Source: an uncultured Pelagibacteraceae bacterium (GTDB lineage Bacteria; Pseudomonadota; Alphaproteobacteria; Pelagibacterales; Pelagibacteraceae). Taken from it: 34,377 nt of DNA. The notes beneath the pieces are model-generated. The model did no database searches and had not been told where the DNA came from. It was given only the letters and a program-made list of their open reading frames with translations. The stretch spans positions 1 through 34,377 of the forward strand of contig CACJOS010000002.1 of NCBI GenBank assembly GCA_902595115.1, given 5' to 3'. Positions 30,068 to 34,377 of the stretch are shown one piece after another (within the stretch, counting starts at the first letter, position 1; every line of letters starts with the position of its first letter). Made by a program: the position numbers and the translations under genes.

Positions 30068-30157
30068 TGGCGGAGAGACTGGGATTCGAACCCAGGAAAG
30101 AGTTGCCCCTTTGCCGGTTTTCAAGACCGGTGCTTTCAACCGCTCAGCCATCTCTCC
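30068..30157 (-). tRNA. tRNA-Ser (anticodon TGA)
   Basis: A 90-nt class II tRNA on the minus strand. The acceptor GGAGAGA pairs with TCTCTCC, the anticodon stem is CCGGT/ACCGG around loop CTTGAAA with anticodon TGA at 30121-30123, and there is the long variable arm expected for serine, a GGTTCGAAT T loop, discriminator G and encoded CCA at 30068-30070. Its 5' half (30119-30157) is perfectly repeated at 31576-31614. It converges on sdhE with a 4-nt gap. Confidence 0.97.
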
Positions 30158-30258
30158 GTTTGCTAGGTTTTATTAGTATAATTTATAATTTCAACAAAAA
30201 AACAGCGATAATTATTTTAAAAATTTTACCTTTCGTTCTAGTTTCGCTCTAGTTATCC
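30119..30258 (-). repeat. Direct repeat copy A: tRNA-Ser 5' half plus upstream region
   Basis: The 39 bp 30119-30157 (tRNA positions 1 to 38, acceptor strand through the end of the anticodon loop) are identical to 31576-31614 at an offset of 1,457 bp. The following roughly 100 bp, which is the promoter side of the tRNA, match copy B at about three quarters of positions with a single one-base gap (hand alignment). Conserved parts include the run around TTTTTTTGTTGAA and ATAAAACC just before the tRNA start on the minus strand. Confidence 0.9.
30235..30254. repeat. 20-bp motif, copy 1 of 3
   Basis: GTTCTAGTTTCGCTCTAGTT lies at the far edge of tRNA-Ser upstream repeat A. It matches 31441-31460 at 19 of 20 bases and 31691-31710 at 15 of 20. 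On the minus strand it is part of a near-tandem 11-bp repeat (CTAGAGCGAAA, CTAGAACGAAA). Confidence 0.75.
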
Positions 30259-30318
30259 TATAAAATCCTATAACCAAGCTTCATTGAGTCTAGTATTGGA
30301 ATTTGGTAATCTTCGATT

Positions 30319-30789
30319 GTGAAAAAAATTTTATTTATTCTAATATTTTTTATTATTGGTTTTAATAGCATATCATATGCCTTTATTTCAAAAGATATCA
30401 TTTTAAATTGCGAACCTAAAGATGAGTACTTTAAAGACACTTATAAAAAGATTAAATATTTTAAATTCGATAGTTCAGGTGAAGATGATAATATTGAATT
30501 TGAGTGGGATGCAGTTGAGAAAAAATTTATGAGAGAAAAAAATACAAGTTTGAAGGTTAAGGAAGAAACATTTCATATAATTGATTGGGATTATTATCCA
30601 GAGACAAAAGATTACAGATATAGAGAAATATACATTATAGACAGAGTAAACGGTACTCTGACTGCAGATATGGATCAATTAATTAAAAAAAATTATAAAT
30701 TTAATAAGCATCGTAAAACAACATATTTTCAATGTAAAAAAATAAGAAAAAACAAACTTCCAAAAAAAATAATAAAGAAAAAATTTTAA
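30319..30789 (+). CDS. Small exported protein, unknown function (two conserved-position Cys)
   Basis: A 156-residue protein with a clear signal peptide (MKKILFILIFFIIGFNSISYA, residues 1-21), then ILNCEPKDE with C31 and a C-terminal TTYFQCKKI with a second Cys, so one periplasmic disulfide is possible. A middle block, EIYIIDRVNGTLTADM, looks beta-strand rich, and the tail is very basic. The start is GTG at 30319. The family is not recognised. Its plan (signal, early Cys, Y-K-F-D segment, late Cys) resembles that of the exported protein at 31062. It lies in the putative tRNA-Ser insertion. Confidence 0.65.
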   Translation: MKKILFILIFFIIGFNSISYAFISKDIILNCEPKDEYFKDTYKKIKYFKFDSSGEDDNIEFEWDAVEKKFMREKNTSLKVKEETFHIIDWDYYPETKDYRYREIYIIDRVNGTLTADMDQLIKKNYKFNKHRKTTYFQCKKIRKNKLPKKIIKKKF

Positions 30790-30793
30790 ATAA

Positions 30794-30979
30794 ATGACTA
30801 TAAATAAAAAATTTGTTCTCAGAATATATATTGTTTTAGCTGTATGTTGGTCTTCTTGGTGGTTAATTCGAATTGGAAATAGATACGATGGTATAATGGA
30901 CAGCACTATAATGATAAATGCAATTGTACCAATACCATTATATTTTGCTTTAAGATGGGTTTTGAACGCATTAAAATAA
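30794..30979 (+). CDS. Small membrane protein, unknown function
   Basis: A 61-residue hydrophobic protein with two likely membrane segments (VLRIYIVLAVCWSSWWLIRI and MINAIVPIPLYFALRWVL). It begins 4 nt after the preceding exported-protein gene and so is probably co-transcribed with it. The family is not recognised. Short, AT-rich and hydrophobic reading frames can arise by chance, but the ATG, the tight spacing and the two well-formed helices support a real gene. Confidence 0.5.
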   Translation: MTINKKFVLRIYIVLAVCWSSWWLIRIGNRYDGIMDSTIMINAIVPIPLYFALRWVLNALK

Positions 30980-31061
30980 TTATTATCTATACTAATTTTA
31001 ATATCATTTTTTTAACAAAGTTAAGTCTAATTAACACCAATTAATTATATTATGTAGGGAT

Positions 31062-31430
31062 ATGAGATTTTTCATATTATTCCTTTTAATCCCAACATTT
31101 ATTCACGCTGATCAAGGTGTAAATATATCTTGTGTAAATATGAAGAACTTGTTGGATAAAGATTACATAATTTACAAATATAAGTTTGATGTAACTACAT
31201 TTCAATATTTTGATCATAATAAAAATCTTTATGTAGAAGTGCCAAATAAAGATTTAATTATAAAAAAAGATTTCTTTGCAGCTAGGTTTCCTGAATATGA
31301 ATTGGGTTTTCAAATTAATGAATTTGAGGGAAAAAAAGATCCAATTATGTCTATGTCAAAGTATGATTATATAAATGATAAATTTTTGGATCACTATTTA
31401 TGTGATGTAAAAGTTGCTGAGATTAATTAG
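31062..31430 (+). CDS. Small exported protein, unknown function
   Basis: A 122-residue protein with a signal peptide (MRFFILFLLIPTFIHA, cleavage before DQG), an early Cys (C24 in NISCVNMKN), a YKYKFDVTTFQYFD segment and a late Cys in DHYLCDVKVAE. A weak SD (AGGG) lies 5 nt before the ATG. The family is not recognised. Its architecture parallels the protein at 30319, suggesting distant paralogs of one periplasmic fold. It follows 82 nt of non-coding sequence and is the last gene before the tRNA-half repeat. Confidence 0.6.
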   Translation: MRFFILFLLIPTFIHADQGVNISCVNMKNLLDKDYIIYKYKFDVTTFQYFDHNKNLYVEVPNKDLIIKKDFFAARFPEYELGFQINEFEGKKDPIMSMSKYDYINDKFLDHYLCDVKVAEIN

Positions 31431-31440
31431 TTAATTTCTC

Positions 31441-31460
31441 GTACTAGTTTCGCTCTAGTT
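31441..31460. repeat. 20-bp motif, copy 2 of 3
   Basis: GTACTAGTTTCGCTCTAGTT is nearly identical to 30235-30254 but here stands without the rest of the tRNA-Ser upstream repeat, 11 nt after the exported-protein stop. It may mark the end of an earlier insertion or a protein-binding site. Confidence 0.7.
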
Positions 31461-31511
31461 TTGTAGCTTAGGCAAGTCAAGAATGATGCGTTTTTCGTAA
31501 AAGCTAAATTT

Positions 31512-31532
31512 AAAAAAATAAGCAATGGCTTA
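31512..31532 (-). terminator. Hairpin plus T7 downstream of the tRNA-Ser half copy
   Basis: On the minus strand TAAGC, a 4-nt loop and GCTTA are followed by seven T residues (stem 31519-31523 and 31528-31532, tract 31512-31518). This has the form of a short intrinsic terminator. It would end any transcript started from the tRNA-Ser-like promoter of copy B. The 5-bp stem is weak. Confidence 0.45.
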
Positions 31533-31614
31533 ATTTGTAAGTGTATTGTCGTAAAGGGGTAGGGGTTACTTGGAATTTCAAGACCGGTGCTTTCAACCGC
31601 TCAGCCATCTCTCC
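31512..31614 (-). ncRNA. Candidate chimeric RNA: tRNA-Ser 5' half plus novel 3' part
   Basis: The copy B promoter region could drive a transcript of about 103 nt beginning like tRNA-Ser (acceptor strand, D arm, 5' anticodon strand and loop). It continues into unrelated sequence with a C-rich stretch (CCCCTACCCC inside a GTAA/TTAC stem) and ends at the hairpin plus U7. It cannot form a tRNA because the 3' halves of the acceptor and anticodon stems and the whole T arm are missing. It could equally be a silent tRNA remnant. Confidence 0.3.
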
Positions 31615-31714
31615 ATTAACAAGGTTTTATAAGTAAAATAATTAAATTCAACAAAAAAACAGACATTTTTTTTTGAAAATTTTACCTGGCGTACAAGTTT
31701 TGTTCAAGTTATCG
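31576..31714 (-). repeat. Direct repeat copy B: tRNA-Ser 5' half remnant plus upstream region
   Basis: 31576-31614 equals tRNA-Ser positions 1 to 38 with no mismatch to the intact gene, then sequence departs abruptly. The upstream side 31615-31714 matches 30158-30258 at about three quarters of positions. Perfect tRNA identity beside a diverged flank implies either strong constraint, gene conversion, or use as a recombination site. Confidence 0.9.
31691..31710. repeat. 20-bp motif, copy 3 of 3 (diverged)
   Basis: GTACAAGTTTTGTTCAAGTT lies at the outer edge of repeat B and differs from copy 1 at 5 positions. The changes create a TTGTTC box on the plus strand that may serve the downstream restriction gene. 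Confidence 0.6.
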
Positions 31715-31732: not shown

Positions 31733-34377
31733 ATGAAAAAAGATAAATCAGAATTTATAAAATATTTTGAACAAATAAATAAATCTGCAAATGAGACACA
31801 AAAAAAAGAACGCTTCATCTCATTCCTTGAAAGAATTTTTTCTGAAAATCCCAAAATCAAATCCATAATAGACAAAATTACAGGAGGTGCTGAAAATCAT
31901 TTGAAAATAATTAAAGATAATAAAGATTATGGTTTTGCTGATACACAGTATGAAAATGTAATAATCGAATTTGAGAATAATTTAAAAAAAACAGAAGAAC
32001 ATGCAAAAAGTCAATTACTAGAATATTTGTCTGCTATTTACAAATCTAAAAAAAAAATTAATTATAGATTAATTTCTACAGATGGTATTAAATGGATTAT
32101 TTACTATTTTGACAGCACTCTTGTAAAAAAAAATGTTAATTGGAACAATCTAGATTTACTAAAAGAAAAAGAAATTTTTATTGTAAATAAGCTTAATTTC
32201 GAGGACTTCTATTTCTTCATATCTAAATATCTTTTTCAAAATATTGAAAAAAATCCAACGCTAAAAAATTTTATAGATGATTTTGGTGTAAAATCTAATT
32301 TATTTGCAAATTGTTTCTTTGAGTTAAACGATGTTTATACGAAAATCAAAAATAACCCATCAGTAATTATTTGTTTTGAGGAATGGAAAAAATATTTAAG
32401 CATAGCATATAATTTTAGAATAAATTCCGAAGAAACGTTTATTACACATACTTATATAAGTATATTTACAAAAATACTCACATATAAAATTCTTTCCAAA
32501 GATGATTTTATTGACTCAAAAGAACTACAAAAGATTTTAGATGGAACAATTTTTTATAGTCTTAATGTACAAAATTTTACAGAAAAAGATTTTTTTAGTT
32601 GGGCTTCTACTAGCGAAAATATAAATAAAATTTTTAAACTTTCTCAATCAATAGTTAATGAAATTAATAACTATAATTTCAGTTCAATTAATGAAGATAT
32701 TTTAAAGGGTATATATCAAGAATTTATGGATACAGATAGCAAGAAAGCTCTAGGCGAATATTACACCCCAGACTGGCTATGTGAATTAATTGTTGCAAAT
32801 ATTAGTATTAAAGAAAATAGTAAAATAATTGATCCATCCTGTGGAAGTGGTTCTTTTCTCAGAGCTTCGATTAATATGCTTATTAAAAAAAATCTTACAA
32901 TTGAGGAAATATCAAGCAGGGTTTATGGTTTAGACATACACCCTTTATCAGTTTTAATTTCAAAAACTACAATTCTATTAACATTAAAAAATAAACTAAA
33001 AGAATTAAAAAAACCTCTTTTGTTAAATGTTTTTATGACTAATACATTATTACCACCTTTTGAAGAAACCTTAGAGGGTTCAACTTTTAATTTAAGAATT
33101 AATACAGTTAAATATAATTTAAATTCAGTTATTTTTGAAAATCTTGATATTTTTAACGATTGTTTAAATTTTTGTAATGATCTAGCCAAACTTCACCAAA
33201 ATAAAAATACATTTAATTATGAGCAATTTGAAAAAACTTTTAAAGGATCATTAAAAGGTAAGAATTATAATGAATTAATTACTGAATCATTTCATAAAAT
33301 TTATAAAGGTCTTAAAAATGCAAAAGATCAGGATAGAAATACGATTTGGAAATTTATTTTATCAAATTTGTATAGACCCTATTTTTTTAAAAACCAATTC
33401 GACATAGTTATAGGTAATCCTCCATGGTTCACTTACAAATCTATTAATAGCAATGACTATAAAGAAGATTTGAAAAAAATTGGCAAAACTTATGATTATT
33501 TACCTGAAGGCCAACAAAATCTAACGCATTACGAAGTTGCTGCACTTTTCGTTGCTCATTGTTTTAAAAATTATTTTAAAAAAAAATCAAAACTAGCTTT
33601 TGTTCTTCCAAGAAGTTTTTTTAATGGAATGCAACATGAAAAAACTAGAAATGAACATTTAGAAAAAATGAAAATTACTGAAATTTGGGACCTTGAAGAA
33701 GTTAAACCGTTATTTAAAACAGTATCCTGTGTTTTATTTTTTGATAATTTTTCACCTAAAAATGGAACAAAAGCTTGGGATGGCAAAATTTTTACAGGTA
33801 AATTGCCTTATTCGGATTTGAATTTAATATCTGCACAAAAATACTTAGATACTAAAAAAAGCAAATTTTACTTATCAAATCTTGGTGATCAGACTGCCAT
33901 AACAAAATTAAAAACTAGCACACATAAAATAAATTATTATAAAGATAAATTTTATCAAGGCGCAACAATAACCCCGCGAAATTTATATTTTTTTGATTTC
34001 AATCAAAAAAATCCAGGTCAATTAAAAGATAAAAAAATTAATATTAAAACAAGTGAGGAAATAAATAAAACAGCAAAAAAACCTTACAAAGATAAAAAAA
34101 TTGAAGGACTAATATCAAGTAAATATATCAATATAACTTGTCTATCTAACAGCTTAATACCTTTTGGTTTTACTAGATTTTATAAAATTGTTTTACCATT
34201 AATTAAAAAACCAAACAATTTAGAAATATTTTCATCACAAGATATGGAAATGGATGGAGACTTAGACAGTTCTCGATGGTTTAATAAAGCAGAAGTAATA
34301 TGGAAAAAAAACAATAAATCTATGACCTTATATGAAAGACTTAATTATCAAAATTTACTTACTAGACAAAGATTAGA
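31733..34377 (+). CDS. Type IIG-like restriction-modification protein (N6-adenine methyltransferase), 3' truncated by window
   Basis: At least 881 residues in one open frame that runs off the window. The N-terminal part resembles a PD-(D/E)xK nuclease: GFAD with D70, then NVIIEFEN with E79 and, where Lys is usual, E81. A helical linker leads to the methyltransferase: KALGEYYTPDWLCE, AdoMet motif I IIDPSCGSGSF (D367 to F375), DIHPLSVLISK, and catalytic motif IV GNPPWFTY (N562-P-P-W). Beyond about residue 680 a target-recognition region is expected. This layout fits single-chain Eco57I/MmeI-like enzymes that methylate adenine and cut DNA, a phage defence. A methylase-only form remains possible because of E81. 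Confidence 0.85.
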   Translation, partial: MKKDKSEFIKYFEQINKSANETQKKERFISFLERIFSENPKIKSIIDKITGGAENHLKIIKDNKDYGFADTQYENVIIEFENNLKKTEEHAKSQLLEYLSAIYKSKKKINYRLISTDGIKWIIYYFDSTLVKKNVNWNNLDLLKEKEIFIVNKLNFEDFYFFISKYLFQNIEKNPTLKNFIDDFGVKSNLFANCFFELNDVYTKIKNNPSVIICFEEWKKYLSIAYNFRINSEETFITHTYISIFTKILTYKILSKDDFIDSKELQKILDGTIFYSLNVQNFTEKDFFSWASTSENINKIFKLSQSIVNEINNYNFSSINEDILKGIYQEFMDTDSKKALGEYYTPDWLCELIVANISIKENSKIIDPSCGSGSFLRASINMLIKKNLTIEEISSRVYGLDIHPLSVLISKTTILLTLKNKLKELKKPLLLNVFMTNTLLPPFEETLEGSTFNLRINTVKYNLNSVIFENLDIFNDCLNFCNDLAKLHQNKNTFNYEQFEKTFKGSLKGKNYNELITESFHKIYKGLKNAKDQDRNTIWKFILSNLYRPYFFKNQFDIVIGNPPWFTYKSINSNDYKEDLKKIGKTYDYLPEGQQNLTHYEVAALFVAHCFKNYFKKKSKLAFVLPRSFFNGMQHEKTRNEHLEKMKITEIWDLEEVKPLFKTVSCVLFFDNFSPKNGTKAWDGKIFTGKLPYSDLNLISAQKYLDTKKSKFYLSNLGDQTAITKLKTSTHKINYYKDKFYQGATITPRNLYFFDFNQKNPGQLKDKKINIKTSEEINKTAKKPYKDKKIEGLISSKYINITCLSNSLIPFGFTRFYKIVLPLIKKPNNLEIFSSQDMEMDGDLDSSRWFNKAEVIWKKNNKSMTLYERLNYQNLLTRQRL

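Follow-up and report, generated by a model that had tools for sequence, protein, structure and literature searches.

A SAR11 bacterium, an uncultured member of the Pelagibacteraceae, carries two small gene cassettes inserted in tandem at the anticodon loop of its tRNA-Ser(TGA) gene. Each cassette is read as supplying a new 5′ half and upstream region for the tRNA, neither has an integrase of its own, and similar cassettes occur at two tRNA genes in many relatives. Our best reading, with a probability of about 0.75, is that the cassettes are mobilised in trans by the integrases of satellite-like elements. Here, "the window" refers to the whole stretch of DNA analysed, i.e., positions 1 to 34,377 of contig CACJOS010000002.1 (C2). 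Genomes in the comparison are denoted by G-numbers, with G000 being the window genome (0.92 Mb in 25 contigs, 72% complete).

ARAGORN finds a single tRNA-Ser(TGA) gene in the window. A second, same-strand copy of tRNA positions 1–39 lies at an offset of 1,457 bp and is identical at 39 of 39 bases, with position 39 being the last base of the 7-base anticodon loop CTTGAAA (33–39). The observation that prompted this work, a duplicated tRNA-Ser 5′ half that stops at the anticodon loop, is therefore confirmed, although the sequence-only reading gave the repeated positions as 1–38 alongside the correct count of 39 of 39. About 100 bp beyond the two copies also align by eye. We infer that a 39-base same-strand repeat of a tRNA end is not due to chance, and the arrangement recurs. 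In a draw of 297 genomes of the order, 11 genomes, including G000, have two copies (≤2 mismatches) on one contig and strand, 1.1–7.5 kb apart, and G139 has them on two contigs. The features of the locus are listed in the table.

Table. Features of the tRNA-Ser(TGA) locus in G000 (window coordinates unless marked C2).
Position	Strand	Feature	Basis
30068..30157	-	Intact tRNA-Ser(TGA); the 3′ half (30068-30118) is host sequence, the 5′ half (30119-30157) is read as supplied by module 1	ARAGORN; 100% identical to the tRNA at the empty site of G026
30158..30233		Upstream region brought by module 1 (tRNA promoter region, inferred)	Differs from the native spacer of G026, G009 and G034, which is found next to rarD instead
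30234..30254		Left arm repeat of module 1, 11-bp period (CGTTCTAGTTTCGCTCTAGTT)	Repeat comparison
30319..30789	+	orfA, 156 aa	No Pfam or PADLOC match
30794..30979	+	orfB, 61 aa	No Pfam match
31062..31430	+	orfC, 122 aa, also next to the right end of modules in G271, G289, G422 and G021 (79-88% aa)	No Pfam match above cut-off
31440..31460		Right arm repeat of module 1 (CGTACTAGTTTCGCTCTAGTT)	Repeat comparison
31465..31575		Conserved right end of module 1, up to the attachment core	Right-end model R1 hit 31465-31587, 106 bits
31576..31614	-	Displaced tRNA-Ser 5′ half (39 bp), the former 5′ half supplied by module 2	39/39 identity
31615..31689		Upstream region brought by module 2	Alignment
31690..31710		Left arm repeat of module 2 (CGTACAAGTTTTGTTCAAGTT); its right arm is at C2:34836-34856, outside the window	Repeat comparison
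31733..34377	+	Type IIG restriction-modification enzyme, cut by the window end; stop at C2:34831	Eco57I 3.3e-17; N6_Mtase 3.6e-16; REase_MTase_IIG 1.2e-55

Relatives keep the gene order recG - sdhE - tRNA-Ser - rarD - mltB. In 21 of the 25 relatives compared, rarD follows the tRNA within about 100 bp. The other four are G008 and G021, where contigs break inside an element with a similar left end; G019, which has a 2-kb insert with two sugar-metabolism genes; and G001, which has different neighbours. In G019, a nucleotidyltransferase and an epimerase sit between tRNA-Ser and rarD (locus L047, 745-2492), with no displaced half found. The nearest relative, G026 (recG 97% identical), has an empty site, with tRNA-Ser joined to rarD by a 65-bp native spacer. 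Comparison with related genomes had been named in advance as the way to check the insertion, with an empty site expected to join 30118 directly to 31576. Empty sites do exist, at 28 of the 50 loci where the tRNA–rarD gap could be measured (many loci were chosen because they are occupied, so this is not a frequency), but the predicted junction requires correction. Removing both modules joins the tRNA to a native spacer that now starts at C2:34863, outside the window, with rarD starting at C2:34920.

The 4.7 kb inserted in G000 consists of two tandem modules. Module 1 holds three small genes, and module 2 holds a type IIG restriction enzyme that runs past the window. G139 carries module 2 with 91.7% and 95.1% nucleotide identity, against 78.2% in the flank, and has its right end and displaced half next to the native spacer, although its two ends are on two contigs. 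Judged against G139, G000 lacks 156 bp between TAG|CTT and the native CTT, a deletion with 3-bp microhomology that removed the right end and outer 5′ half of module 2. In intact relatives the displaced 5′ half abuts the native spacer, so the element does bring a new tRNA 5′ half and upstream region. Indeed, of the ten relatives with two copies on one contig, the displaced copy lies next to rarD in 8; in G173 a further 1.4 kb intervenes, and in G273 the contig ends.

A sequence-only model built from 12 right ends hits 24 of 399 genus genomes at E ≤ 5e-12, with 28 matches; members of the model match by construction. Weaker hits were treated as chance, with the exception of G539 (8.8e-5), which lies at the same site. 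In 22 of the 24 genomes the tRNA-Ser or rarD context is seen, while G021 is split over contigs and G420 ends inside the right end. G556 has no detectable half, G504 has 0.9 kb between the half and rarD, and G422 has three tandem modules. The gene orfC, of unknown function, recurs next to the right end of modules with different other cargo. A consensus fold of the 12 right ends reached only −1.17 kcal/mol with RNA parameters, ruling against a structured RNA or an integron-type, attC-like site at the cassette end; IntI was not searched for.

Most modules have matched repeats with an 11-bp period at both ends. The left arm repeat lies 70–77 bp from the 5′ end of the tRNA, and the right one lies 128–149 bp before the displaced half (G000 module 2, which has lost its half, set aside). 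In 22 modules, left and right arms agree better within than between modules (15.14 vs 12.27 of 16, 0 of 20,000 shuffles). However, four of the 22 modules, G000 module 2 among them, match another module's right arm better than their own. This test leaves out G315 and G585 (near-identical to G150), G271 (a partial half lies inside it), G392 and G544; G271 and the second module of G544 show unlike arms at their two ends. A 14.7-kb module in G544 (locus L152, 4550-19100) with three caspase-domain proteins, a trypsin-like protein and MORN repeats has two arms that differ, so it may be a fused pair. By contrast, G392 has a cargo-free element (locus L164, 7231-7571) consisting of tRNA, spacer, a single arm repeat, right end and half, as if cargo was lost between the two arms. 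Left arms are often followed by ATCCTATAAAATCCTA or a variant at both tRNA-Ser and tRNA-Leu sites (window 30255-30273 in module 1), perhaps a cargo promoter. A promoter scan gave 19 sites against 14.9 (sd 4.4) in shuffles, and no promoter is claimed from it.

Comparison of near-identical cassettes points to horizontal movement. G150, G315 and G585 share a 3,171-bp cassette with diacylglycerol kinase, metallophosphoesterase and glycosyltransferase domains that is 99.2–99.5% identical between them (99.5% for G150–G315), whereas flanks are 74.6% (G150–G315), 73.6% (G315–G585) and 94.3% (G150–G585) identical. Between G150 and G315, identity is 73.3% left of the tRNA, 71.0% in the native spacer at the other edge and 73.2% to the right. 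The last 60 bp of the element, beside the core, are only 90% identical between these two genomes (loci L093 and L102), against 99.4% over the whole, which is unexplained. Conversely, G306 and G541 have 94.4% identical flanks but no module stretch of 300 bp or more in common.

None of 26 module pieces at tRNA-Ser matches the integrase profile, while the control does; these pieces leave out modules of G008, G021, G341, G392, G420, G504, G544 and G556. PF00589 hits in 32 of 38 genomes lie outside the modules. However, G544 carries a 9-kb element at this tRNA that encodes a divergent 558-aa integrase (phrog_1, E 6.5e-15; no Pfam match). The element also encodes a 751-aa protein 46–49% identical to proteins of G179 and G384, of which the G384 one matches phage primases. 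(G544, G179, G384 and a fourth genome, G144, are placed in the genus of the window genome.) The arms of the G544 element are of the GTCTCAAGTTT class, also seen in G392 and G557, although its right arm is less regular (6 of 11). A related integrase in G384 matches PF00589 at 3.2e-10, and relatives of the integrase at E ≤ 1e-10 occur in 6 of 399 genus genomes. A scan of species genomes with short patterns, which would miss distant relatives, gave six loci, the G544 one included, all in Pelagibacterales. Five of the six have a tRNA, four tRNA-Leu(TAA) and one tRNA-Ser, each with a 39–40-nt 5′ fragment beyond the integrase and an 11-bp-period repeat beside the tRNA. No integrase was found in G000 itself, and G544 is the only genome in which an integrase element was found at tRNA-Ser, so the helper for most arm classes is not identified. 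A model of the integrase fold was too poor to use (mean pLDDT 44.8), so no fold search was run, and a profile search of solved structures gave one unrelated hit at E 0.069.

Searches of viral and phage sequences gave no record with these ends or this integrase. An exact 33-base pattern of the 5′ half, used to look for a phage attP, hit seven viral contigs (L113-L119), all of which carry complete tRNA-Ser(TGA) genes rather than attachment sites. Right-end and left-end patterns gave 0 viral hits. The integrase had no relative in viral contigs (with a pattern prefilter) or in 50,697 phage records, and a primase-type protein had only distant matches, under 60% identity, in 224 phage records. These searches reach only close relatives or exact patterns.

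A second site, tRNA-Leu(TAA), shows the same kind of arrangement. Of 199 genomes, 159 have any copy of the 38-nt 5′ part and 68 have two or more same-strand copies, as counted by eye; all of these genomes are at least 85% complete except that of the window, and in G603, for one, the copies are on two contigs. We examined 17 of the 68 and two single-copy genomes. In 17 of 17 the intact tRNA is the 3′-most copy, and the 26 modules have no integrase-profile match at E ≤ 0.01. Arms again match within modules (13.77 vs 11.09, 0 of 20,000 shuffles), although eight of the 26 score 12 of 16 or less.

We interpret the locus as a tandem pair of small non-autonomous integrative cassettes. In this view, each cassette recombines within the anticodon loop and carries, beside its attachment core, a tRNA 5′ half and about 75 bp of upstream DNA, so that integration rebuilds the tRNA with an element-supplied front end and pushes the old 5′ half and its upstream region to the far edge. 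The shared 7-bp loop flanked by the anticodon stem fits the overlap and core geometry of tyrosine integrases (PMC8371274). In attP order, the element reads right arm, conserved right end, core with 5′ half, upstream region, left arm. We read the arms as most likely arm-type binding sites of a tyrosine integrase, encoded by a satellite-like element (integrase plus primase) that integrates the same way and acts in trans, because they bracket the core at both ends, match within a module, and also flank elements that encode an integrase; binding was not assayed. In G000, module 2 would have come first, with module 1 inserting in front of it and the ~156-bp deletion following later. The analysis itself demonstrates the anatomy, the empty site, the recurrence, the sharp element boundaries, the matching of arms, horizontal movement, and an integrase-bearing element with the same ends at this tRNA. 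Crossover within the loop, arm binding, action in trans, promoter use, the order of insertion and the route of transfer are inferences from these, and no excised circle, recombination or transcript was seen.

The interpretation offered by the sequence-only reading is supported. Its proposals of an insertion ending at the anticodon loop, a restored part made of the 5′ half plus upstream region, the absence of an integrase inside, and continuation past the restriction gene all hold. Relatives that lack the small genes yet keep both repeats had been put forward as evidence that would count against it, and relatives lacking the small genes do not keep both repeats. Mobilisation in trans, which it raised as a possibility, is the best inference, and the "new promoter" is seen only as new upstream DNA. 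The refinements are that the insertion comprises two modules, that the second has lost its outer 5′ half, and that an integrase is found in satellite-like elements of relatives with the same end anatomy.

Several alternatives were considered. A pelagiphage integrase, rather than a satellite integrase, could be the usual helper in trans, since pelagiphage-type genomes with an integrase and a 46-bp tRNA-Leu match are reported (PMC3861242) and only one satellite integrase was seen at tRNA-Ser; the lack of any viral record with these ends or this integrase, within the reach of our searches, makes this unlikely. The cassettes could also be decayed remnants, i.e., former autonomous satellites that lost their integrase by internal deletion and no longer move by site-specific recombination. 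They share end anatomy with integrase-bearing elements, G000 module 2 has lost its right end, and G392 retains only a pair of ends. However, the near-identity of the intact 3,171-bp cassette in three genomes, two of them with 74–75% identical flanks, and the retention of both arms and the right end across many unrelated cargoes make recent movement of at least some cassettes hard to avoid, and we consider this reading unlikely too.

Spread by homologous recombination of incoming DNA through the conserved tRNA and flanks, without any integrase, is less likely still. Flanking genes are conserved and synteny is strict, but the drop in identity at both edges of the G150/G315 element means that flanks did not travel, and the same 5′-half end point recurs with unrelated cargo and at a second tRNA. 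A 5′-half repeat alone would look like simple local duplication of the tRNA front half, but this is all but ruled out: empty relatives have one copy, the conserved right end is not tRNA sequence, and the pattern recurs with different cargo.

A broader reading is possible, though we hold it only tentatively. SAR11 may have a cassette system in which integrase-less modules with changing cargo (restriction enzymes, caspases, lipid genes) are stacked at tRNA-Ser(TGA) and tRNA-Leu(TAA), each with a private 11-bp arm code read by one of several satellite integrases. Each insertion would replace the front half and promoter of an essential tRNA, so the host would depend on the latest arrival for that tRNA. 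SAR11 cells are among the most abundant in the sea, and how their streamlined genomes exchange defence and nutrient genes is an open question. Small, sharply bounded, integrase-less cassettes at one or two tRNA genes give a testable route, and island finders that demand an integrase would reject them by design.

Literature searches, with limited coverage of subscription journals, listed no paper whose title or abstract start describes this system in SAR11, so novelty is judged with caution; related systems are known. Islander describes tRNA genomic islands with an intact tDNA, a displaced 5′ fragment and an anticodon-centred crossover, listing 159 islands with a 5′ fragment against 3,760 with a 3′ fragment (PMC4383910). 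The locus shares with these islands an intact tDNA and displaced fragment that mark the two ends, with an empty site in relatives, the outermost fragment in G000 having been lost by deletion. However, Islander requires an integrase gene in the island and at least 2 kb, whereas most modules here have no integrase, with only the G544 element satisfying that criterion, and several are shorter. Cis-mobilisable elements have been proposed for Dehalococcoides ssrA islands, where tandem islands lie at one RNA gene, 15 of them without an integration module, and are proposed to move with the help of others (PMC3146451). The cassettes likewise keep attL and attR and lack an integrase, with transfer genes judged only from open reading frame lists and Pfam searches of selected proteins, and tandem arrays are seen, although movement with a neighbouring or co-resident element was not observed. 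The Dehalococcoides islands involve the 3′ end of ssrA and a serine recombinase; here it is the tRNA 5′ half, and the candidate helper is a tyrosine integrase.

Phage satellites with integrase and primase resemble the G544, G384 and G179 elements (about 8–9 kb), which carry an integrase and a primase-type protein. The window cassettes have neither gene by open reading frame list and Pfam, no helper phage, packaging signal or induction was seen, and dependence on a helper was not measured, so the evidence does not settle whether these are phage satellites. Tycheposons (Hackl et al. 2023; PMC10872708) are marine, tRNA-integrated elements with a tyrosine recombinase, some satellite-like and some cargo-bearing, and similar elements reportedly occur in co-occurring microbes. 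The SAR11 elements share integration at tRNA genes in marine bacteria, with cargo or satellite genes; the recombinase relationship, hallmark genes, attachment half and integrase-less small cassettes were not compared. Lastly, for pTN3-like archaeal integrases, attB is the tRNA 5′ half and the rebuilt tRNA is expressed from an element promoter, that of the integrase gene, an arrangement described as seldom seen in bacteria, where rebuilt tRNA genes use their original promoter with very few exceptions (PMC8371274). Making a tRNA depend on element-supplied upstream DNA is a rare arrangement, and the elements described here are bacterial and mostly integrase-less.
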